Assembly: GCF_030406725.1 (NCBI RefSeq)
Contig: NZ_CP129107.1
Span: forward strand, 1,054,001-1,118,000
Direction of reading: 5' to 3'
DNA length: 64,000 bases
Source: Alteriqipengyuania flavescens
GTDB taxonomy: Bacteria > Pseudomonadota > Alphaproteobacteria > Sphingomonadales > Sphingomonadaceae
Of this stretch, positions 4,155-19,102 are shown piece by piece (the first letter of the stretch is position 1; each line of letters starts with the position of its first letter). The position numbers were made by a program, and so were the translations under genes. The notes beneath the pieces are model-generated. The model did no database searches. It had not been told where the DNA came from and saw nothing but the letters and a program-made list of their open reading frames with translations.

Positions 4155-4808
4155 TTGCCCTTTCGCAATGCCGATATCGGCGATGTGCAAAATGATCCTT
4201 TCCATAAACTGCTGGAGAAGCTGACTGCCATCGACGCGCTGGGGCAACTTGTGCTGCCTCGCGAGTCCGAGAGGCTTGCGGAGCTGAAGCGACAGGCTGC
4301 CGCAGCAGCAAAACGGCGTTCGCGAGACGAACAACGATATACGCTCGGCGGCCTGATGTTCTCTTTGGATCTCAATACACTAGATTATCATGCGCTTTAT
4401 GGATTGCTGGCGCATCCCGACCATTTGCTCGTGTGGGCAATCGAAGCACGGGCATCGACAGGAGCGGGGACTTTGGCAAACATCATCCGCTTGATCTTAG
4501 ATGACAAGGAACGAGCTGGCAGATGTGCGGAGTGGGGCCAACACCTAGCGTGGAGTCGAATGCGCCAACTGTATGAGGCTGAGGTCAACGCGTTCATTTC
4601 TTCCGAAAAATGCGGACTGAAAGCAAGATGGCGCCGCGATCCCATCACAGCCGCCCAAAACTACTTGATCAGTGAAATCTGCAAGCTCGATAGCATCGAA
4701 AATCCAACGCTCACTACGAAAGGGCAAGCTTTCGATTGGCTTCGCGAGCGCGGCGGTAACCCAAGGTTTTTAGCGCGTCCTGCTCCTATGCCTCTGATGA
4801 GTTCATGA
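4155..4808 (+). CDS. Hypothetical protein of accessory patch (217 aa)
   Basis: Not recognised. A 217-residue soluble protein read from a TTG start, the only start that opens the whole frame; an AGGA lies about eight bases upstream. It has charged helices early (RESERLAELKRQAAAAAKRRSRDEQRY, residues 36-61, described by position), then mixed regions without signal peptide or TM helix. Its stop overlaps the start of the next small gene (ATGA at 4805-4808), so the two are probably co-translated. Codon use is less GC-biased than in flanking housekeeping genes, suggesting acquisition. Real coding is supported by the coupling and frame length only. Confidence 0.55.
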   Translation: MPFRNADIGDVQNDPFHKLLEKLTAIDALGQLVLPRESERLAELKRQAAAAAKRRSRDEQRYTLGGLMFSLDLNTLDYHALYGLLAHPDHLLVWAIEARASTGAGTLANIIRLILDDKERAGRCAEWGQHLAWSRMRQLYEAEVNAFISSEKCGLKARWRRDPITAAQNYLISEICKLDSIENPTLTTKGQAFDWLRERGGNPRFLARPAPMPLMSS

Positions 4809-5029
4809 TCAATCAAGTCTCCCATCCAATCGACGAAGCAGCTGCTCTGCTGAGCCAAAAGGAACGGGAGTTCCTGAACGCGTCGGCTGCAGTCGAGGCC
4901 GCTCTAGCAGATGGACATACCGGATTATCTGAGCTCGATCGGCTTAACGAGATCGCAGCGGAAGTCGCGCAGATAGCAGAGTTCCTTTCGGATCATCTTC
5001 AAACGCAGCTTGCGTCGTTTCTCGAATAG
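4805..5029 (+). CDS. Small hypothetical protein coupled to upstream gene (74 aa)
   Basis: Not recognised. A 74-residue acidic, strongly helical protein (for example FLNASAAVEAAL and LNEIAAEVAQIAEFL with heptad-like spacing), so it may form a coiled coil and partner the preceding 217-residue protein. The ATG overlaps the upstream TGA as ATGA, a strong sign of translational coupling and the reason for this start. No membrane segment or metal motif is present. Confidence 0.5.
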   Translation: MINQVSHPIDEAAALLSQKEREFLNASAAVEAALADGHTGLSELDRLNEIAAEVAQIAEFLSDHLQTQLASFLE

Positions 5030-5134
5030 GGCGCATTGAGATGGCCATTAAACCTTAGGATCAAAGAGTATGCGCCACCAATCAGTCAGGTCGGCGTTTG
5101 GTGAGGAATGAACTTCATTCTTAAGGAGTGTTTC

Positions 5135-6712
5135 GTGGGCGAGAAGAGGATAAATAAGTCTCCGTCTGAAATCGCCAGGGAGGCGGATTACCACAAGCGC
5201 CAGCACGGGAACCAAGAGGGTTTCTCGAATAAAGATCCAAGACAGGAAAAGGTTGCAAAAGAGACGCCGAGAGAACTGAAGAACAGGAAGAATCGGGAAT
5301 CGAAAACGAGATCTGCGATCATGCGGACGGACTTAAGTTTACTTGGAGGAAGTATCTCCTTTCCGGCGAATCTTAATGAATATATCGAGACGCTCGTCCT
5401 ATCCGAAAATTGTGGTGTGAGTAACGACGACAAGGCGTCAGCCATTTTCTCACCCACCCTGAAGGCGATCACAGATTTGCCGATCGGTCTGCTGACCGAG
5501 AAGGAATGTATGCTTCCGCGAGCATTGGTTCCTTCCGGATTTTCAGAAATTTTGCGCCATTGCCGGCGGATGATCTCCGTATCGGGGGACAAAAGCTACA
5601 TCGCCTACGCAGTGGCTGGTTGGAAAACGTGTTCTGTGGACCGGGCAGCTTTTCGAAAGATGCAGGTCACCGCGCAGCAAAATGCCTTAAGGCACCTTGA
5701 TGCTCATGCCCGCGCGCTGGCGCAAATCGAAGCAGATCACCCGAAGCTTTTTGAGGCGATTTTATGTGGCCGGCACAAGACTGCGCTGGACCTTCTAAGC
5801 CAAAGAACGCCAGAATCAGTGCTGAAGCCGCATCACATCCGCGCCGTGATTGCGGAGCATGGGCTGATCTATTGTCTGCATGATTTGCAATTAATCGCAG
5901 CGAGAGCGCATGCAGCAGAAGCTAATCCCTTCGAGAGCCTCGCTAGCTCCACCATGATCCAGATGAAGCCCGAAAACATCGCAAACCAGTCTCGCAGACA
6001 AGCGGCCACGCTGAACTCACTTCTGGCACAATATGCAACGCTGAGCGAAGAACTTGGCGGAAAGTTACCGCCCGAGGAAATTCCTGATCGGGAATCGCTG
6101 CGGTCTTTGGCCAACCAAGTGAGGTATGAAGCGAAGAAAACAGGCACCAACCTGCTCAGTCACCGATCGCAAATCGACGACTTAATCAGGTTCATGCGGA
6201 ATAATCCGGTCTCTAAAAATCTGACATACCTTGCGATCTTGCACCAACCGGTCAGCAGAAATGGAATGGCGACAAGCTTCAACGCGTTTTGGTTTTCGGG
6301 GTTGAGCGCTACCCAAACGGTTTCAGTAGCCATTCTACGCTATCTCCAAGCCGAAAAAACGATTAAAATGCTTATTGAGGAGCGTGACCCTCGTTCAGTG
6401 CGGCCGCTTCGTGAGCATACTGCGATGCCAGCTTACGAACTGAGCCCCAAAGCGCCAGATACCTTCAGAGAGGCCCAAGACCTTCTGTTCATGTTGAGGC
6501 AGAACATTCTCCACGACAAGGACTTCACAACGAACGAAGAAAGCGTGTGGGAGCGTAGCGATCGAGAAGGCAGGCCCCCTATTAAGAAAGCGGCCGAAGT
6601 CTTGAAGGAATGGGGGCAGAGAGAAATAGGCGCGGATAAGGGTTCGCTCGACGATGCGGGGCGCACTTACTACTTACTGGACGTAATCCCCGAGCATCGG
6701 CTGGCATACTAA
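5135..6712 (+). CDS. Large hypothetical protein of accessory patch (525 aa)
   Basis: Not recognised. The GTG at 5135 is preferred because a perfect AAGGAG (5123-5128) lies six bases before it; an ATG at 5108 would add nine residues but has no well-spaced site. Residues 1-65 are very rich in Lys, Arg, Glu, Asn and Gln and look disordered or nucleic-acid binding; the rest is mainly helical and globular with no signal peptide or TM helix. The C-terminal part contains ILHDKDFTTNEESVWERSDREG and a terminal LLDVIPEHRLAY. Codon use is distinctly more A+T-rich than the neighbours. With the two preceding unknown genes it forms a possible accessory island; a defence or mobile-element role is only a guess. 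Confidence 0.65.
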   Translation: MGEKRINKSPSEIAREADYHKRQHGNQEGFSNKDPRQEKVAKETPRELKNRKNRESKTRSAIMRTDLSLLGGSISFPANLNEYIETLVLSENCGVSNDDKASAIFSPTLKAITDLPIGLLTEKECMLPRALVPSGFSEILRHCRRMISVSGDKSYIAYAVAGWKTCSVDRAAFRKMQVTAQQNALRHLDAHARALAQIEADHPKLFEAILCGRHKTALDLLSQRTPESVLKPHHIRAVIAEHGLIYCLHDLQLIAARAHAAEANPFESLASSTMIQMKPENIANQSRRQAATLNSLLAQYATLSEELGGKLPPEEIPDRESLRSLANQVRYEAKKTGTNLLSHRSQIDDLIRFMRNNPVSKNLTYLAILHQPVSRNGMATSFNAFWFSGLSATQTVSVAILRYLQAEKTIKMLIEERDPRSVRPLREHTAMPAYELSPKAPDTFREAQDLLFMLRQNILHDKDFTTNEESVWERSDREGRPPIKKAAEVLKEWGQREIGADKGSLDDAGRTYYLLDVIPEHRLAY

Positions 6713-9533: not shown

Positions 9534-11198
9534 TCAGGAGACGATCTGGCCGTTCTCGATCCGCACCTGCCGGTCGGCCAGCGCGGCGAGCGCGCCCCGG
9601 TGGCCGATGACCAGGATGGTGACGGAGCCGCGCAGCCGGGCGATCGCCCCGGCGATGGCGTGTTCATTGTCCCCGTCGAGCGCGCTGGTCGCCTCGTCCA
9701 GGATGAGCAGGTCCGGATTGCGCAGCAGCGCGCGGGCAAGCGCAAGCCGCTGGCGCTCCCCGCCCGACAGCTGGCGCCCGCCATCGCCGAGCCGGTGCCC
9801 GGTCCCGCCGGGCAGGTCGAGGACGAAGCTGGCCGAGGCATCGCGCAGGGCCGCTGCAAGAACGTCGTCCGAAGCGTCCGGCGCCGCCATGCGCAGATTG
9901 CCGGCGATGGTGCCGGGGAACAGCACCGGCTCCTGCTGCACATAGGCGACGCGGCGGCGCCACGCGGCGCGCGCCGAGGAGGGCAGCGGCGTGCCGTCCA
10001 CCAGCAACGCCCCTTCGTCGGGGGCAACCAGCCCGCCCAGCACGTCGGCCAGCGTGCTCTTGCCCGCGCCGGAAGGGCCGGACACCGCAACCATTTCGCC
10101 AGCCGCGATGGTAAGCGAAATGCCCGACAACGCGGGCCGCGAGCCTTCGTAAGTGACGGATACACCATCGAGCGCGAGCGCCCGCGTCAGGGGCGGTGCG
10201 ACATTATCCGCGTCTGCGTTCTCGGCGGCCGCGTCCATCCGTGCAAGCAGGTCCTCGACCGCGCCGATGGCCGGCACTGCGTTGTTCCACCGCTGCAGGC
10301 TTTCAACCAATGCGCCGAGCAGCGGCACGCTGCGCAGGAGGATCGCGGCCAGCGGCAGGACGATGGCAAGGGCAAGCCCCTGCGTATCGGCCGCGAACCA
10401 CACGACGCCGCCGAGGATGATCGCCCCGCCCAACTGGAGCGCGGTGCGCGCCCATGCGGTGCCGGAAAGGTAAGCTCGCTCGGTCTTTCGCAATTGCGCC
10501 AGTTCATTCGCCAGACCAGTCGCTGCCGCATCCTCGCGCCCGAAGCTCTTCACGAGCCGCAACCCGTCGAGGCTGGTCTCGAGCCGTTCGTAAATCGCGT
10601 CGTAGGCTGCGCCGGTTTGGAGGCCCAGATGGCGGGCGCGACGTTGCAGCGGCAACAGCAGCAGCATAGCACCAGCGCCTACGCTAATCCCTGTCACCGC
10701 CGCGACCGGCGACAGCAACAACGCGGCCACGCTCAGCGCGGCTAGGGTCGTGGCGGCAGCTAGGGCGCTGCCCCCTTCCTGCACCGCATGGCCGACCCTT
10801 GCGATGCCGGAAATCAGCAGGGCGCGGTGCTCGCTCTGGCGGGAGGCAGAGAGCGCGCGCCAGTCGGCGGCGAGCAGCGAGCGGAAGGCGCGCAGCCGGA
10901 GGCCGTCGACCACCGCGATCTCGATATCGAGCGCGACGACGTGCCGCAAATGCGCCGCTGCCGCGCGCAGGGCGACGAGAGCCACGAACAGGCCCAGCAC
11001 GCTCGGTAGGCTGAGGGCAGCGGCCCATTCGAGCAGCCTGCCGCCATCCGCCCCGCGGCCAGCATTCCCGCCCAACCGCGCGAACAGCGGCACCAGCGCA
11101 ATGGCGCCCAGCGCCTCAAGCCCGGCGCCCGCAACAGTCAGAACGGCAAGAACGAGCGCCTTGCAGGCCGGCAAGTGATCGCGGATCGCGGAATCCAT
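9534..11198 (-). CDS. Lasso peptide exporter, ABC transporter with fused permease and ATPase
   Basis: A 554-residue half-transporter: six TM helices in residues 1-320, then an ATPase domain with Walker A GPSGAGKST, signature LSGGERQR and Walker B LLILDEATSALD. It begins five bases after the cyclase stop. ABC exporters of this type (D proteins) are standard in proteobacterial lasso clusters, where they pump out the mature peptide and confer self-immunity. There is no N-terminal C39 peptidase domain, consistent with leader removal by B2 rather than by the exporter. Alone it could be a generic multidrug or lipid exporter; its place directly after the precursor and cyclase makes the peptide-export role likely. 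Confidence 0.88.
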   Translation of the reverse strand: MDSAIRDHLPACKALVLAVLTVAGAGLEALGAIALVPLFARLGGNAGRGADGGRLLEWAAALSLPSVLGLFVALVALRAAAAHLRHVVALDIEIAVVDGLRLRAFRSLLAADWRALSASRQSEHRALLISGIARVGHAVQEGGSALAAATTLAALSVAALLLSPVAAVTGISVGAGAMLLLLPLQRRARHLGLQTGAAYDAIYERLETSLDGLRLVKSFGREDAAATGLANELAQLRKTERAYLSGTAWARTALQLGGAIILGGVVWFAADTQGLALAIVLPLAAILLRSVPLLGALVESLQRWNNAVPAIGAVEDLLARMDAAAENADADNVAPPLTRALALDGVSVTYEGSRPALSGISLTIAAGEMVAVSGPSGAGKSTLADVLGGLVAPDEGALLVDGTPLPSSARAAWRRRVAYVQQEPVLFPGTIAGNLRMAAPDASDDVLAAALRDASASFVLDLPGGTGHRLGDGGRQLSGGERQRLALARALLRNPDLLILDEATSALDGDNEHAIAGAIARLRGSVTILVIGHRGALAALADRQVRIENGQIVS

Positions 11199-11203
11199 CG
11201 GCC

Positions 11204-13102
11204 CTAGTTACGCCCTTCCAGGTGGTCGGCAAACCGGCCTGCCAGCACCACGCCCGGCAGCGCCAGCAGCAGCGCCTGCGCCTCCGCATGACCGGCGGGC
11301 GAGCGTGCGGGCCAGTTGTCGAGGATGGAGTAGGCGCGGTCGAAGTCGATGACGGCGCCCAGCTCCGGATGCGCTTCCATGCGGCGCAGGCTTTCGCGCA
11401 ATTCCTCGCGCCGCGGGGTCAGGCGGGCATGGCGGTCCGCGTTATGCATGCCGAGCCGCCGCTCCGTCCGCTGCGCTTCGGGCAGGCGGCCCTTGGCAAG
11501 CCGGCGGGCAAGATAGCGCGTCACGCCGCCGCGCACGAACTGGCTGGTCGGCAAGGTGATGCAGAATTCGATCAGCGGGCGATAGGCATAGATATCGCGC
11601 TGACGAATACCGAAAACCTGCTCGAACCCGTGGTGCATTTCCGCGCCTGCGTCCGCGCCATGCCAGACCATGTCGAGCCACTGGCGGCGGGTCGCCGGCC
11701 GCTCCCCGGTTCGCAGGCAGTGGTTGCGCCGCGCCCGCTCGCGCAGGTCCAGCTTGTCGATTGCGTCCGGGCGCACGAGGCTGCCGTTGGCGGGCATGAA
11801 ATCGGGCTCGCCATGAACCCGCTTGCGGACGAAGCGGCGAAACCCCTCCGGCATGATCGGCAACAGCGATTGCGCGGCGAACCGGCGCAGCCGCGACCGT
11901 TCGTCGCCTGGCGCAGGATGGGCGAGCAATCCGGACAGCTGTCGCCACTTGCCGTTCACCAGGAATTCGACCGGCGCCCACGGCGCGTCGTTGCTGAGCG
12001 TGTCGTTGCCCATGAATCCGGTCAGCAGGACGTCGCAGCCGGCGCGCGCCGCCGCGCTGTAGGCGTTGTGGTAAAAACTGGCCGCCGCCTGTCCGGGCCG
12101 GCCGGTGGAAGTCGCGGTGAAGAAACGCTCGGCAAGATTGTCGAATTCGGCGGTGCCGACGAAGTTTGCGTCGATGCGCCGATGCATGGTGGCGAACGCC
12201 TCGACCGCGGCGCGCTCGTCGGTCACAATCCCCGGCCGGCGGTCCCGCGCAGTACCCGCCTCCGGCACTACGGTGAAGCTCGGCAGGCGTTCCGATTCCC
12301 ACAGCTGGCGTAGTACCGCCTCCGCCGCGATGCCCGAATCGAGGCCGCCGGACAGCAGCAATCCCGGCTTCTCCGCGCCGTCCAGCGCGGCGGCGACAGC
12401 CTCGTCCAGCAACGCATCGGCAGCGGCGAGGTAATCGGCGTCGTCGGGCAATTTCGTGGGCGGGAGGGCGTGCGGATCGTACCACCGGTCGACCTTGAAC
12501 CCGTCGGGCCCCAGCGTGACGATCGAGCCTTGCGGCACGCGGTGGACCCCGTCGTACCAGAATTCGGTGCCGGTGTGCTCGATACCGAACAGCATGTTGG
12601 CATAGCGGTGCCGGTGCAGCCGGCGCGGGAAGCCCGCTGCGAACAGGACGCGCGGGACCGAGGCGACGACGGCGGCGTGGTCGTCGCCCGCCCAGAAGAG
12701 CGAGGGGGCGTCCCAAGCACTACGCGACAGCCTCAGCGTGCCGTCGGGCTTGATGACGATGGCGGCGTAGGAGCCGATTACGGGGCGGTCGGCGAAATCC
12801 CCGTGCTGGGCGACGAGGTGGGCAAAGACATGCGCATCGTCGCGATCGGCGACGTCGATGCTCTCGGCAAGATCCTGGTGGTTGTCGATCCAGCCGCAGA
12901 AGAGGCACAGCGATCCGTCGGGACCGGTGGCCGGCGTCCAGCTGCGATCGGGTGCGGCGCGCGGGTGCGGCAGGCTTGCGGCGAGCCCGGCGGGCGTGTG
13001 CGCGCTACTGGCGGGATGACCGGTGAATAGCCCCAGCGACGGGGCGATCCGCGACGTGTCGAGCCACGAGGCCGCGGACCAGTGGTGGCCGAGCGCAATC
13101 AT
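11204..13102 (-). CDS. Lasso peptide cyclase, asparagine synthetase B homologue (C protein)
   Basis: A 632-residue enzyme expected to adenylate an Asp/Glu side chain of the precursor and close the macrolactam with the freed N-terminus. The synthetase domain carries the pyrophosphate-binding motif SGGLDS at residues 251-256. The N-terminal domain resembles the Gln-amidotransferase fold, but the residue after Met is Ile, not the catalytic Cys of true AsnB, so no glutaminase activity is expected; this is typical of lasso cyclases. It starts 18 bp after the stop of the putative precursor and is followed within five bases by the exporter. Its context with PqqD-like, transglutaminase-like and HPr-kinase-like genes rules against a primary asparagine synthetase. 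Confidence 0.9.
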   Translation of the reverse strand: MIALGHHWSAASWLDTSRIAPSLGLFTGHPASSAHTPAGLAASLPHPRAAPDRSWTPATGPDGSLCLFCGWIDNHQDLAESIDVADRDDAHVFAHLVAQHGDFADRPVIGSYAAIVIKPDGTLRLSRSAWDAPSLFWAGDDHAAVVASVPRVLFAAGFPRRLHRHRYANMLFGIEHTGTEFWYDGVHRVPQGSIVTLGPDGFKVDRWYDPHALPPTKLPDDADYLAAADALLDEAVAAALDGAEKPGLLLSGGLDSGIAAEAVLRQLWESERLPSFTVVPEAGTARDRRPGIVTDERAAVEAFATMHRRIDANFVGTAEFDNLAERFFTATSTGRPGQAAASFYHNAYSAAARAGCDVLLTGFMGNDTLSNDAPWAPVEFLVNGKWRQLSGLLAHPAPGDERSRLRRFAAQSLLPIMPEGFRRFVRKRVHGEPDFMPANGSLVRPDAIDKLDLRERARRNHCLRTGERPATRRQWLDMVWHGADAGAEMHHGFEQVFGIRQRDIYAYRPLIEFCITLPTSQFVRGGVTRYLARRLAKGRLPEAQRTERRLGMHNADRHARLTPRREELRESLRRMEAHPELGAVIDFDRAYSILDNWPARSPAGHAEAQALLLALPGVVLAGRFADHLEGRN

Positions 13103-13120
13103 GCCCCGGCCCCGAAACCG

Positions 13121-13267
13121 TTAGCTGCGGTTCGTGGAATTCTTGCTGTTGCCCTGGTCGCTTGCAGTGCGGCTCCCCGCCACGTCGCGCAAGGTGCCCA
13201 TCGGCACCAGTCGGGGCGTCGACCATCGCTTGGCATCCGTGCCCTGCTCTTTCACATTCGCCTCCAT
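13121..13267 (-). CDS. Putative lasso peptide precursor (48 aa)
   Basis: A 48-residue ORF between B2 and the cyclase, on the same strand. The leader part contains WSTPRLVPMGTLRDV, resembling the PxLxxxG-type leader recognised by PqqD-like B1 proteins in proteobacterial lasso precursors. The C-terminal part AGSRTASDQGNSKNSTNRS holds a single acidic residue, Asp37, the only possible ring-closing residue: Ala30-Asp37 would give an 8-residue ring, Gly31-Asp37 a 7-residue ring. The usual Thr two residues before the cleavage site is not present for either choice. The last residue is Ser, as in peptides phosphorylated by HPr-kinase-like tailoring enzymes. The ATG at 13267 is chosen because the promoter places the transcript start just upstream; a further ATG at 13303 lies inside the -10 box. 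Confidence 0.75.
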   Translation of the reverse strand: MEANVKEQGTDAKRWSTPRLVPMGTLRDVAGSRTASDQGNSKNSTNRS

Positions 13268-13298
13268 GACGGACCGCGGGGATGCGGCGTTGCGATGC

Positions 13299-13327
13299 AG
13301 CATAACAGACACCGAATCGCCTGCCAA
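13299..13327 (-). promoter_or_regulatory. Promoter of the lasso precursor-cyclase-exporter transcript
   Basis: On the minus strand TTGGCA (13322-13327) and TATGCT (13299-13304) are separated by exactly 17 bases, five and four matches to the sigma-70 consensus. The predicted transcript start near 13292 leaves about 25 bases before the precursor ATG. It sits in the only gap of the cluster, between B2 and the precursor, so it would allow the precursor to be made at higher level than the maturation enzymes. Confidence 0.55.
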
Positions 13328-13341
13328 CGATGCTCTGTTAA

Positions 13342-13761
13342 TCAATGCGATCCCAGCGCATGGGACGCAAACGCCACGTCGCTGCCTCGCCGCTCCCCGT
13401 AAATGACCTGCCCGCGATGGGTCAGCCACGCATGCAGGTCCTCGTGCCCGTCGCGTTCGGCGGGAGGGCGCACGCCGATCTGAAGCTGCGAACCGAAGCC
13501 GCGCCGCCGCAGCATCAGCGCCATTGCCAGGGCGCGGGGCAGGCAGGGGGCATCGCCCGGCATGCGCGCAGCGGCCCGCTCGATGGCCGCGGAGCGGTGT
13601 CGCAAGGTCGCTGCGTCGGGAGCGAGACGGGTCGGGCCGCTGCCACGCGCGAACCAGGTCCGCCATGTGCGGAAGGGCACCAGACGGACGAGGCCGTGTG
13701 CGACCGCCAGCGCAAGCGCAGCCTCCGCCGTGCGCAGCCAGCCATGCACCCGTCGCGTCAC
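13342..13761 (-). CDS. Lasso peptide leader peptidase B2, transglutaminase-like
   Basis: A 139-residue protein of the bacterial transglutaminase-like fold that removes the leader from the precursor. The catalytic Cys73 lies in APCLPRALAMALMLRRRG and the catalytic His110 in LHAWL, the two hallmark segments of lasso B2 proteins. The N-terminal third (AEAALALAVAHGLVRLVPF) is the hydrophobic helix usual in this family. The start is GTG at 13761, overlapping the B1 stop as GTGA, so B1 and B2 are translationally coupled. Family and context together make the assignment strong. Confidence 0.9.
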   Translation of the reverse strand: MTRRVHGWLRTAEAALALAVAHGLVRLVPFRTWRTWFARGSGPTRLAPDAATLRHRSAAIERAAARMPGDAPCLPRALAMALMLRRRGFGSQLQIGVRPPAERDGHEDLHAWLTHRGQVIYGERRGSDVAFASHALGSH

Positions 13762-14009
13762 GCCAGCAGTCCCGCGCTGCGCAGGCTGGCGAGGAAGGCG
13801 TCGAGATCCTCCCCCATGGCCGGATCGCCGGCATAGTCGCGCTGCAGTCCGGCGAGGATTTCGTCACGGCTGCGCTCGCCATCGATCAGGTTCCAGATCG
13901 CGTGCGCGCTGCCTTCCATGGCGAAGAAATCGCCGTCGGACATGCGCATGACGACGGTTTCGTCGTCGAAGGCCGTTTCGGCGAAGTCGCTGGTCTTGCG
14001 CGGAATCAT
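13758..14009 (-). CDS. Lasso peptide recognition protein B1, PqqD family
   Basis: An 83-residue PqqD-fold protein (RiPP recognition element) that binds the precursor leader and presents it to B2 and the cyclase. The pattern ETAFDDETVVMRMSDGDFF, then AHAIWNLIDGERSRDEIL and a C-terminal helix ending in SAGLLA matches the family's beta-hairpin plus three-helix layout. The start overlaps the stop of the kinase gene (ATGA at 14006-14009), and the stop overlaps the B2 start. This split B1/B2 arrangement, rather than a fused B protein, is common in Gram-positive clusters and in the sphingomonad clusters with a kinase. Confidence 0.9.
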   Translation of the reverse strand: MIPRKTSDFAETAFDDETVVMRMSDGDFFAMEGSAHAIWNLIDGERSRDEILAGLQRDYAGDPAMGEDLDAFLASLRSAGLLA

Positions 14010-14863
14010 CGCATCGCACGCTCGATTGCGTGGCGCGCGAAGTCAAGATTGGCGGTGTATTCGCCGGCCCCGTGCGGCAGCCACAGCCGCCATGCGGGGA
14101 CGCTGCGCGCCCTGGCCGCGGCGTCGGCGAAAACGGCAGCGCGGTCCCACCGGCGGGCGAGCGCGAGGAACTCGCTGCAGTAATGGTCCGCCGACCAGGC
14201 CGCGATTGCCGCCGCGCCGCCGAGCGGCCGGAATGACCGGCCGCCCTCTTCCAGCAGGACCACCCCGCCGAGCGGCAAGGGCCGGTCCGCGCGCGGCAGG
14301 CCCTCGGCAAAGAACTTCGCGTATTCGGGCGAGACCTGCTCGCCCTTCGCCGCACCGGTCATCGCGAAGGCATCGGGCCACAGCTTGGGCTTTTTGCGCC
14401 ACGGGAGGACTTCGGGGCCGCTTTCGCCTTCCACGATCACGCTCAGGTCATCGGCGAGGAGCGGCATGCCCGCCAGCGCGAGCCCCGTCGCCAGCGTGGT
14501 CTTGCCCGCGCCCGACGGGCCGGTGAGGATGACGGCGCGCCCGTCCACCGCCACCGCCGATCCGTGGAACGGGTAGAGCCCGGCGAGTGCCGCCACCGCC
14601 GCCGCGATACTGCCTTCGCAGAAGAGGTCGATCTCGGCCGGGTGGGTCCCTTTGCTGGGATCGACCGTCAGCCCGCTGCCCAAGCGGTAATGGACGAGCG
14701 TGTCGGGCGGGATGCGGAACAGCAGTTCGCCCGGCTTGAGCATATACGTCCGCTGACCCAGCGCCTCGCCATCCAGCGCCGCTTCCACACGGCCGGTCGT
14801 TCGCTGCAGCTCGTGCTCCAGCAGCGCCAGCGCATCTTTGCTGTGCATAACCCGCTCAGCCAT
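14006..14863 (-). CDS. HPr kinase-like tailoring kinase of the lasso cluster
   Basis: A 285-residue P-loop protein of the HPr kinase/phosphorylase C-terminal-domain type: FHGSAVAV (residues 99-106), Walker A GPSGAGKT at 115-122 and LLADDLSVI at 135-143. It lacks a PTS HPr context, and its stop overlaps the B1 start. In paeninodin-type clusters such kinases phosphorylate the hydroxyl of the precursor's C-terminal Ser; here the precursor indeed ends in Ser. The frame is open further upstream but that would run into the divergent rpe gene; ATG 14863 or 14848 are both possible starts. Kinase activity and target are inferred from family and context. Confidence 0.85.
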   Translation of the reverse strand: MAERVMHSKDALALLEHELQRTTGRVEAALDGEALGQRTYMLKPGELLFRIPPDTLVHYRLGSGLTVDPSKGTHPAEIDLFCEGSIAAAVAALAGLYPFHGSAVAVDGRAVILTGPSGAGKTTLATGLALAGMPLLADDLSVIVEGESGPEVLPWRKKPKLWPDAFAMTGAAKGEQVSPEYAKFFAEGLPRADRPLPLGGVVLLEEGGRSFRPLGGAAAIAAWSADHYCSEFLALARRWDRAAVFADAAARARSVPAWRLWLPHGAGEYTANLDFARHAIERAMR

Positions 14864-14948: not shown

Positions 14949-15608
14949 ATGGCTCCCCCGCTGATCTCGCCATCCATCCTTTCTGCCGACTTCGCGAAGT
15001 TGGGCGAGGAAGTGCGCGCCATCGACGCGGCCGGGGCGGACTGGATCCATATCGACGTGATGGACGGGCATTATGTCCCCAATATCACCATCGGCCCTGC
15101 CGTCGTGAAGGCCCTGCGTCCCCATACCGACAAGCTGTTCGACGTCCACCTGATGATTTCGCCGGTGGATGCGTATCTCGAAGCCTTTGCCGATGCGGGC
15201 GCGGACATCATCACCGTGCATCCCGAAGCGGGTCCGCACGTCCACCGCACGGTGCAGGCGATCAAGGCGCTGGGCAAGAAGGCGGGCGTCGTCTTCAATC
15301 CCGCAACCCCGGTCGACACGCTCGATTACCTGGTCGAGATGGTCGACCTGGTGCTGGTGATGAGCGTCAATCCCGGCTTCGGCGGGCAGAAGTTCATTCC
15401 CAGCCAGCTCGGCAAGATCCGCGAGATACGGAGCCGCATCGACGCGAGCGGACGCGATATCCGGCTGCAGGTCGATGGCGGCGTCGATGCGCAGACCGCG
15501 CCGCAATGCGTCGAGGCGGGGGCCGACGTGCTGGTTGCCGGGTCGGCCACCTTCAAGGGCGGTCCCGATCGCTATGCCGCCAACATTGCCGGCCTGAAGG
15601 GCGGATAG
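14949..15608 (+). CDS. rpe: Ribulose-phosphate 3-epimerase
   Basis: A 219-residue TIM-barrel enzyme interconverting ribulose 5-phosphate and xylulose 5-phosphate in the pentose phosphate pathway. Signature segments are all present: [33 protein letters not shown] with the metal-binding His and Asp, [20 protein letters not shown] and the phosphate-binding VDGGV...VAGSATF. Length is normal. It is divergent from the lasso kinase gene and followed one base after its stop by the heparinase-like gene, so those two form an operon. Confidence 0.97.
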
Positions 15609-15609
15609 G

Positions 15610-17505
15610 ATGACCGATAGCCTCTCCCGCACCGCGCCGGACACAATCGAGCTGCCGCTCGGCGATCCGCAGGTTCCGGGCGAGGACGATGCGCGCGCCA
15701 TCCCGCTGAGGAGCGCTGAAGAAGGCTTGGTCCGCGAGGAAACGAAGCGCCGGTCCGATCCGCCGACCACCGCTGCCGCTGCCGTGGACCACGCCGCCGG
15801 CGCCAGCCGCGCGCTGGCGCTCGCCGATTTCGCCCCGCCGTCGGTCGGCGCGGGCGAGCGGTTGATGCGCATGGCATACCGGATGGGCGTGCCGGGCTCG
15901 GTCCTGTCCGGTCCGTTCCGCAAGCCGTCCGCACTGCGCCTGCTTGCCACGGTCGAAAGCCCGCTGCCGGGCCGCCGGCCCAGCGGCGTCGCGCTGAGGG
16001 CCGGCCATTTCCTCGTCCACGGGGTCAAGGCGCCGATTTCGCAGATGGATTTCACGCCCAGCGCGCGGCTCACCCCGCCGTTCGAGCAGGCGATCCACGG
16101 CTTCACGTGGCTGCGCGACCTTTCCTCCTCCGCCCCGCGCGAACAATGCAGCGGCGTGGCGGAGCGGATCGCCGCCGCGTGGCTGAAGGCCAATCCGCAG
16201 GTCGGCAAGGGCATGCCGTGGCGCGTCGGCCTGGCGGCGCGCCGGATGCTCGCATGGCTGGTCCACGCCCCGCTGGTGATGTCGGGCGACAAGGGCGTGC
16301 GCACCAAGCTGCTCGCCCAGATCGCCGAGACCGCGCGCTGGCTCGACCGCAACCATGGCAAGGCAGAGGACCGGCTGGAGGAAGTCGCCGCGTGGTGCGC
16401 GATCACCGCCGCCGGCCTGCTGCTGCCCGATGGCAAGCCGCGCCGCCTCTATGGCGAAGCCGGTCTTGTGCACGCGCTGGGCGAACTGGTGGGTGAAGAT
16501 GGCGGCGTCCTGTCGCGCAGCCCCTATGCCCAGATGGAAGCGCTGCGCCTGCTGGTCGACTGCCGCGCCTGTTACGAGGCGGTGCGCCGCGATCCGCCCG
16601 ATGCGCTGGAGGCGATGATGCGCCTGCTCGTGCCGCCGCTCCTTACCCTGACCCATGCCGACGGGTCGCTCGGCAACTGGCAGGGATCGGGCGCTACGAG
16701 CGCCAACACGCTGCGCGCGCTGGTGGAGGCGACCCGGGTGCGCACCCGCCCGCTCAGGCAGGCGCGCGGCTGGGGTTACCAGCGGGTCGCGGCCAAGGGC
16801 GCGGTGCTGCAATTCGACGCCGCCCCGCCGCCGCTGGCGCGCCACGCCCGTTATGGCTGCGCATCCACGCTGGCGTTCGAATTTTCCAGCGGTGCGCATC
16901 GGCTGATCGTGAATTGCGGCGGGGCTGCGATGGCCGGCGGACAGATTCCCGTGCGCATCGAACAGGGCCTGCGCGCCACGGCAGCGCATTCGACGCTGGT
17001 GCTGGAGGATGCCAATTCCACTGCCGTGCTGATCGGCGGTAAGCTGGGCGCAGGCGTCGGCGAAGTGGAAATCGACCGGCGCAGCGTGGGCGGCAAGAAG
17101 CCGGCAACCCGGGTGGAAGCGAGCCATGACGGCTATGCCAGCCGCTTTGGCCTGGTCCACCGGCGCATCCTGCTGCTGAGCGACGAGGGCGACGAATTGC
17201 GCGGCGAAGACGTGCTCGTGCCCTCGGGCCGCAAGGGCAAACGCGGCAAGGTCAATTATGCGATCCGCTTCCATGTCGGGCCGGGCGTGGAGCTCAGCCT
17301 GACGAAGGATCGCAAGGGCGCGCGGCTTGCGCTGCCTGACGGCACCAACTGGCAGCTGCGCACCACGGAAGGCGAGCTGTCGATCGAGGATTCGATGTGG
17401 TCGGACGGTGACGGCCGCCCGCAGGCGATCGAACAACTGGTAATCGCGGGGATGATCTCGCGCAGCGGGGCGAATTTCTCCTGGCTGCTCAAGCGAATGG
17501 GGTGA
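15610..17505 (+). CDS. Heparinase II/III family protein
   Basis: A 631-residue protein with an alpha-helical N-terminal half (to about residue 400; for example [14 protein letters not shown], which resembles the alpha6/alpha6 toroid region) and a beta-rich heparinase II/III-like C-terminal domain beginning near [26 protein letters not shown]. Family members cleave uronic-acid polysaccharides by beta-elimination, but this cytoplasmic-looking branch has no signal peptide and its substrate is unknown. It is sandwiched between rpe (1-base gap) and purH (4-base gap), so it is expressed with central-metabolism genes. Confidence 0.85.
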
Positions 17506-17509
17506 TTTT

Positions 17510-19102
17510 GTGACGGATGCAGTCACGGTGAAGCGGGCGCTGCTCTCGGTGTCCGACAAATCCGGCTTGGTCGAACTGGGCCGGGACCTGGCGGCGCGCG
17601 GCGTGGAGCTCGTTTCCACCGGCGGCACGGCCAGGGCGCTGCGCGACGCAGGGCTGGCGGTAAAGGATATTTCCGAGCTCACCGGCTTTCCCGAAATGAT
17701 GGACGGGCGGGTCAAGACGCTGCATCCCAAGGTCCACGGCGGGCTGCTCGCCGTGCGCGACGATGCCGCCCATGCCACCGCCATGGCAGAGCATGACATT
17801 GGCGCCATCGACCTCGTGGTGGTCAATCTCTATCCCTTCGAAGCGACCGTGGCGAAGGGCGCAGGGCGGCCCGAAATCATCGAGAACATCGATATCGGCG
17901 GGCCGAGCATGGTCCGCTCCTCGGCCAAGAACCACGCTTACGTGACCATCGCCACCGACCCTGGCGACTATGCCGCACTGCAGGGCGAGCTGGCCGACCG
18001 CGACGGGGCGACCTCCTACGATTTCCGCAAGGCGATGGCAGCGAAGGCCTTTGCCGCGACCGCCGCTTACGATTCCATGATCGCGAACTGGTTCGCCCAA
18101 TCCGACCAGGGGCAGGGCCTGCCGGACCGCCTGTTCGCCAACGGGCGCAAGGCGGACGAGCTGCGCTATGGCGAGAACCCGCACCAGTCGGCTGCGATCT
18201 ATATCCCGGCCGGCCCCCCGGCGCGCGGCATCCCGCAGGCCGAGCAGGTGCAGGGCAAGGAGCTGAGCTATAACAATTACAACGATGCCGATGCGGCACT
18301 GAACCTCGTCAGCGAATTTGCCGGACAGGACCCGGCCATCGTGATCGTCAAGCACGCCAATCCGTGCGGCGTGGCGCAGGCGGGCAGCCAGATCGAGGCG
18401 TGGGAAGCCGCGCTGGCGTGCGACAGCGTTTCGGCCTTCGGCGGGATCGTTGCCTCCAACACGCCGCTCGATGGCAGGACGGCAGAGGCGATCTGCAAGA
18501 TCTTTACCGAAGTCGTGGTGGCGCCCGATGCGGACGAGGAAGCGAGGGCGTTCTTCGCGGCCAAGAAGAATCTGCGCCTGCTCCTGACCGGCGAGCTGCC
18601 CGATGCGGCGCGCGGCGGCCTTTCGATCAAGTCGATCACCGGCGGCATCCTCGCGCAGTCGCGCGACAATGGCCGGATCACGCGCGACGACCTGAAAGTG
18701 GTCACCGAGCGCGCGCCGACCGAGCAGGAGCTGGACGATTGCCTGTTCGCCTGGACGGTGGCCAAGCACGTCAAGTCGAACGCCATCGTCTATGCGAAGG
18801 ACGGCGCGACCGCAGGCATCGGGGCGGGGCAGATGAATCGCCGCGACAGCGCCCGCATTGCCGCCATCAAGGCGCAGGAAGCGGCCGGGAAATACGATTG
18901 GGACCAGCCGCGCACCGTGGGCAGCGCCGTTGCGTCGGATGCCTTCTTCCCCTTCGCCGACGGATTGCTGTCCGCCGCCGAAGCGGGCGCGACGGCCGTG
19001 ATCCAGCCCGGCGGCTCGATGCGCGACCAGGAAGTGATCGACGCTGCGAACGAACAGGGCCTGGCTATGGTGTTCACCGGGATGCGGCACTTCAACCACT
19101 GA
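17510..19102 (+). CDS. purH: Bifunctional AICAR transformylase / IMP cyclohydrolase
   Basis: A 530-residue enzyme for the last two steps of IMP synthesis: formylation of AICAR with 10-formyl-THF and ring closure. The N-terminal cyclohydrolase domain shows [28 protein letters not shown] and [22 protein letters not shown]; the transformylase part shows [42 protein letters not shown] and the C-terminal [10 protein letters not shown]...[14 protein letters not shown]. The start is GTG. It ends a short cluster rpe-heparinase-purH and converges on the following lipoprotein gene. Confidence 0.97.

Follow-up and report, generated by a model that had tools for sequence, protein, structure and literature searches.

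Paeninodin closes its ring on an acid and has Thr at position -2. Reviews describe lasso rings as being closed on the adenylated side chain of Asp or Glu (PMC13352647, PMC10368454). Paeninodin, ThcoA/ThcoK, SyanA/SyanK and pseudomycoidin (PMC9266682) have the same type of kinase and the same C-terminal Ser as the precursor family presented here; within this group, the C-terminal Ser is modified by SyanK, which comes from a sphingomonad, and by PadeK and PsmK (PMC9266682). SyanA may itself belong to the Gln family described below. The bsf system of Bradymonas sediminis (BsfA/B1/B2/K; PMC10368454) shares with our locus an HprK-like kinase, split B1 and B2 proteins, a YxxPxL leader and Ile or Val at position -2. 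Experiments place the cleavage of BsfA after Ile(-2)-Arg(-1), and precursors with Val or Ile at this position were noted in Sphingomonadales, which makes the Thr(-2) rule one with a known exception (PMC10368454). Unlike the family of the window, however, BsfA has Asp8 and no terminal Ser, its kinase BsfK modifies Ser3 (PMC10368454), and the sequence similarity is partial. Metanodin (PMC12670498) is a recent lasso peptide whose ring contains an unexpected residue, but this is an Asn at position 1 and the acceptor is a normal Asp; it was therefore rejected as a precedent for an amide acceptor.

The window, that is, the whole 64-kb stretch of DNA that was analysed, carries the genes K-B1-B2-A-C-D on the minus strand at 9534–14863, with their motifs intact. 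The stop codon of K overlaps the start of B1 in ATGA (14009–14006), and the stop of B1 overlaps the start of B2 in GTGA (13761–13758). The remaining genes are separated by 74 bases (B2 to A), 18 bases (A to C) and 5 bases (C to D). The gene order and the proteins recur in relatives, which argues that the cluster is not a chance arrangement. The coordinates, profile matches, predicted fold and conserved gene order thus agree with the preliminary description, which had proposed a six-gene lasso-type cluster on one strand with overlaps between K, B1 and B2, and there is good support for assigning the genes to the lasso-type biosynthetic machinery. The cluster is flanked at 14949–19102 by genes that we take, from their sequences, to be rpe, a heparinase-like gene and purH. 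The same neighbours are present in several other genera, and the locus therefore looks inherited in place.

K (14006–14863, minus strand, 285 aa, alternative start ATG 14848) encodes an HprK-like peptide kinase which gave only weak HprK matches (TIGR04352, 5e-9). Its residues H100, the P-loop GPSGAGKT, D138 and D139 are those tested in BsfK (PMC10368454), and H100, GxxGxGKT and DD139 are conserved in 17 homologues, in line with the tailoring HPr-kinase-like gene that had been proposed. B1 (13758–14009, minus strand, 83 aa) is a PqqD-type leader-binding protein (RRE; PF05402, E 7e-14), whose family profile matches BsfB1 at 2e-21. B2 (13342–13761, minus strand, 139 aa, GTG start) is a transglutaminase-type leader peptidase that matches NF033537, lasso_biosyn_B2, with 73.6 bits (cut-off 33), and its Cys73 and His110 are invariant in 63 homologues. 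D (9534–11198, minus strand, 554 aa) was assigned by HMMs as an ABC exporter with transmembrane and ATPase parts. The search with lasso-specific profiles that had been suggested earlier thus returned lasso_biosyn_B2 for B2, PqqD for B1 and, for C, the lasso cyclase as best NCBIfam match, below its cut-off. No lasso isopeptidase was found in the genome above the curated cut-off.

The precursor gene A (13121–13255, minus strand) had been given as 48 residues, which corresponds to a start at ATG 13267. This ATG has no Shine-Dalgarno sequence, whereas GTG 13255 has a good one (GGAGG, 13265–13261), and we therefore revise the length to a probable 44 aa. The precursor had no NCBIfam or Pfam match at E<=1 and is the sole lasso-precursor-like small ORF within the window. 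A hidden precursor with Asp or Glu elsewhere was considered and rejected on this count; other motif matches were present in 5 of 72 relative loci, and none of these was lasso-like. A candidate promoter upstream of A at 13327–13299 was also discarded, as similar sites occur in only 7 of 60 relatives. The predicted core, GSRTASDQGNSKNSTNRS (13124–13177, minus strand), follows Val at -2 and Ala at -1. Its register was set by aligning the Val or Ile at -2, which gives GSRTASDQ... with Gln at position 8, where the sister clusters have Asp8. The core start is thus deduced from BsfA (PMC10368454) and the sister precursors; the leader of the window's family is one residue shorter than theirs, and a shift of one residue would change the ring size. 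The Gln8 codon, CAG, lies at 13154–13156. Beside it, at 13157–13159 on the same strand, is the codon of Asp7, which is the sole acidic residue of the core and an alternative acceptor at a position (7–9) where Asp or Glu is looked for in lasso precursors.

The small ORF before each cyclase was collected wherever it carried the pattern W..P.L...G...[DEN][VI], which yielded 60 distinct precursors from about 16 genera. The leader always contains its Trp, Pro and Gly, and Val or Ile follows the D at its end. In the register used, Val or Ile stands at -2 in all 60 precursors (Val in the window) in place of the Thr of the lasso rule, and the YxxPxL motif is present as W..P.L...G, with Trp replacing Tyr throughout. 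The core is variable except for one column and the last residue. This column holds Gln in 49 precursors, Glu in five, Asp in four and Asn in two, so that the acid looked for at core positions 7–9 is replaced by an amide in most of the family; 44 of the Gln residues lie at one position and five lie one residue later. Both codons are used (39 CAG, 10 CAA), so that it is the residue that is kept and not the DNA. The residue preceding the Gln is not conserved and may be Thr, Asp, Asn, Gly, Ala or others. No Asp or Glu at all is present in 34 of the 60 cores, such as GNGTVQNQGRSSGSVANS of Croceicoccus hydrothermalis (L092), whose cluster contains B1, B2 and K, and GPIGFGTQAGPNARS of Qipengyuania vesicularis (L105). 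A side-chain lactam is therefore impossible in these cores unless the Gln is converted. In close relatives, the Gln column itself is occupied by Glu or Asp. The sister clusters, which share the kinase and have leaders with Val or Ile at -2, show Asp or Glu at about core position 7–8; in L066, L068, L114, L116, L119, L136 and L140, the Val or Ile is at the same distance and Asp is found eight residues into the core. Taken together, the acids of the relatives and of the sisters indicate that the Gln column is the acceptor column.

The last core residue is Ser in 59 of the 60 precursors, including that of the window, and Thr in the remaining one, and the conservation of the Ser does not depend on the linkage of a kinase gene. 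By analogy with SyanK, PadeK and PsmK, K probably phosphorylates this C-terminal Ser. The C-terminal phosphosite proposed in the preliminary description is plausible in view of the conservation and of this analogy, although the Ser3 target of BsfK shows that a kinase of this kind may act elsewhere.

Asparagine-synthetase-like enzymes use ATP to adenylate a carbonyl, and argininosuccinate synthetase and TilS activate amide-like carbonyls. The cyclase C (11204–13102, minus strand, 632 aa) matches PF00733 (E 9e-16), and its best NCBIfam match is the lasso cyclase NF033535 (4e-24, below the curated cut-off). The protein begins MIAL... and thus has no glutaminase Cys, as had been described for this AsnB-type cyclase; the N-terminal catalytic Cys of primary asparagine synthetases is accordingly absent. 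The AlphaFold model (pLDDT 92.5) matches TsnB9, beta-lactam synthetase (Z 27) and AsnB (Z 26) over the full length, with Z of 24–29. The PP-loop SGGLDS (251–256) is invariant among relatives, which indicates that ATP use was kept, and C most likely still uses ATP. PesC, beta-lactam synthetase and TsnB9 have the same fold and PP-loop chemistry as C, but different substrates. No solved lasso cyclase was found by sequence for comparison.

In the cyclase tree, the Gln-family enzymes group together in a single, strongly supported clade (54 proteins, SH-aLRT 100). Within it, the precursors mostly carry Gln, with Glu in three places, Asp once and Asn once. The sister and outer cyclases with readable precursors pair with acids, except for one (L138). 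This cyclase lies outside the Gln clade and its acid-free precursor core has Gln at position 8, an apparent second, independent origin of the Gln acceptor. Among the Gln-type cyclases, residue 553 is His in 42 of 47, and it is also His in the window's enzyme; among the acid-type ones it is Gln in 20 of 28. A weak alignment places this residue in the loop that holds Lys443 of beta-lactam synthetase, four residues further on. The covariation of residue 553 with precursor type is suggestive only: it was the best-ranked column but tied with another, six independent pairs gave no significance (median p 0.6), and the pattern is explicable by the tree, so that it was rejected as proof of coevolution. 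A GN motif in C was likewise dropped as a mark of the Gln type, since it is general in related cyclases.

Cyclase relatives were found in 56 of 299 genomes of the window's family at E <= 1e-15, and a profile search found them in 66 of 398 genomes at E <= 1e-60. By our own count from the resulting table, about 40 of the 398 genomes, in 16 genera, fall in the window's part of the cyclase score range. Carriers include Croceicoccus, Novosphingobium, Qipengyuania, Pontixanthobacter, Parapontixanthobacter and Parerythrobacter. The order K-B1-B2-A-C-D recurs and K is clustered in many relatives, while about 17 clusters contain just B1-A-C(-D). K and B2 are gone from the cluster in many relatives and kept elsewhere in the genome: B2 was detected in 22/22 genomes with the cyclase versus 6/25 without it, and a K-like kinase (E < 1e-20) in 25/25 versus 3/12. 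B2 stands alone in several of these genomes. Relatives without B2 in the cluster (L071–L089) retain an unlinked copy, which in some adjoins an acyl-CoA dehydrogenase-like gene.

Several further observations were made in the relatives. In Croceicoccus genomes (L063, L064, L065) there is an additional cyclase whose precursor is of the Asp type, and neither B1 nor B2 nor K was detected nearby. One locus (L074) carries a second, more distant lasso-type cluster with an ORF between K and B1 (4272–5141) that is sulfotransferase-like by its sequence start, and another (L058) has two Gln-type precursor genes within one cluster. The Gln-type cores of L035, L036, L098 and L132 contain a Cys pair, which is possibly disulfide-bonded.

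From the genes, the motifs, the conservation of Gln and the phylogeny, we propose the following pathway. B1 would bind the leader (W..P.L...G...DV), K would phosphorylate the precursor, most likely at the conserved C-terminal Ser, and B2 would cleave after Val(-2)-Ala(-1). C would then use ATP to link the freed N-terminus with the side chain of residue 8, Gln in this family, and D would export the product. The odds that Gln8 is the residue used by C are about even. Since the Gln-type cyclases keep the ATP-binding loop, they probably activate the side-chain amide of Gln, leading either to an amidine or to loss of ammonia. In the likeliest chemistry, the carboxamide would be adenylated, the N-terminal amine would attack and AMP would be lost, giving a macrocyclic amidine; ammonia release with formation of an ordinary isopeptide bond would be the second choice. 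A precedent for the adenylation of an amide is given by PesC, a RiPP enzyme of the asparagine-synthetase-like type (PMC13060819). PesC activates the amide with ATP but, unlike the proposed action of C, works on the C-terminus and takes ammonia from glutamine. We assign a probability of roughly 0.3 to the reading that the Gln family, which occurs across about 16 genera of the window's taxonomic family (relatives of Erythrobacter, Croceicoccus and Novosphingobium), makes threaded macrocyclic amidines through the Gln carboxamide.

In the window itself, Asp7 makes the acceptor ambiguous: it would suffice for a conventional ring of seven residues like that of xanthomonins, with Gln8 as a mere neighbour or recognition residue and an ordinary phosphorylated lasso peptide as the product. 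Asp is found at position 7 in several relatives and the enzymes are lasso-like throughout, but the position before Gln varies, the acid-free cores have nothing to offer such a ring, and Glu and Asp replace Gln in its own column and not beside it, which leaves this reading doubtful. The earlier interpretation holds for the class, a lasso-type cluster with a tailoring kinase, while the Gln acceptor of most of the family and the Val at -2 had been missed. The water-loss signal by mass spectrometry that was suggested with it cannot by itself separate an Asp7 lactam from a Gln8 amidine.

A normal isopeptide lasso could also be reached if Gln8 were deamidated to Glu, or lost ammonia, for example with the help of B2, which has a transglutaminase fold with intact Cys and His. 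The five precursors with Glu at the same column within the Gln clade agree with such a step. We consider it unlikely: the clusters showed no additional conserved gene for a deamidase, the ATP site has been retained in C, and keeping a Gln that must first be converted would be a detour where Glu could serve directly. It is more improbable still that C makes no side-chain ring, and instead uses the C-terminus or converts Gln, for instance to a nitrile, with Gln8 serving for recognition. The C-terminus is the sole carboxylate in the 34 acid-free cores, and PesC acts on the C-terminus and makes a nitrile (PMC13060819); against this, the C-terminal Ser is the likely phosphosite, Glu and Asp alternate with Gln at position 8, and the Gln clade is surrounded in the tree by cyclases whose precursors are of the acid type. 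Amidine formation on Gln8 remains our preferred reading.

No Gln or amidine lasso peptides were found in the open-access literature, and the presence of Gln in place of the ring-closing acid suggests an as yet undescribed route by which a peptide is closed or modified in some other manner. As genome-mining rules depend on an Asp or Glu acceptor, they may overlook the whole Gln family or score it wrongly. The cluster is present in named species of which strains have been sequenced (Croceicoccus pelagius, C. hydrothermalis, Qipengyuania vesicularis and Parerythrobacter lutipelagi), which makes direct testing possible. Should Gln prove to be the acceptor, a macrocyclase that forms an amidine in a peptide would be new for asparagine-synthetase-like enzymes; if Gln is deamidated or bypassed, that step would be new too.
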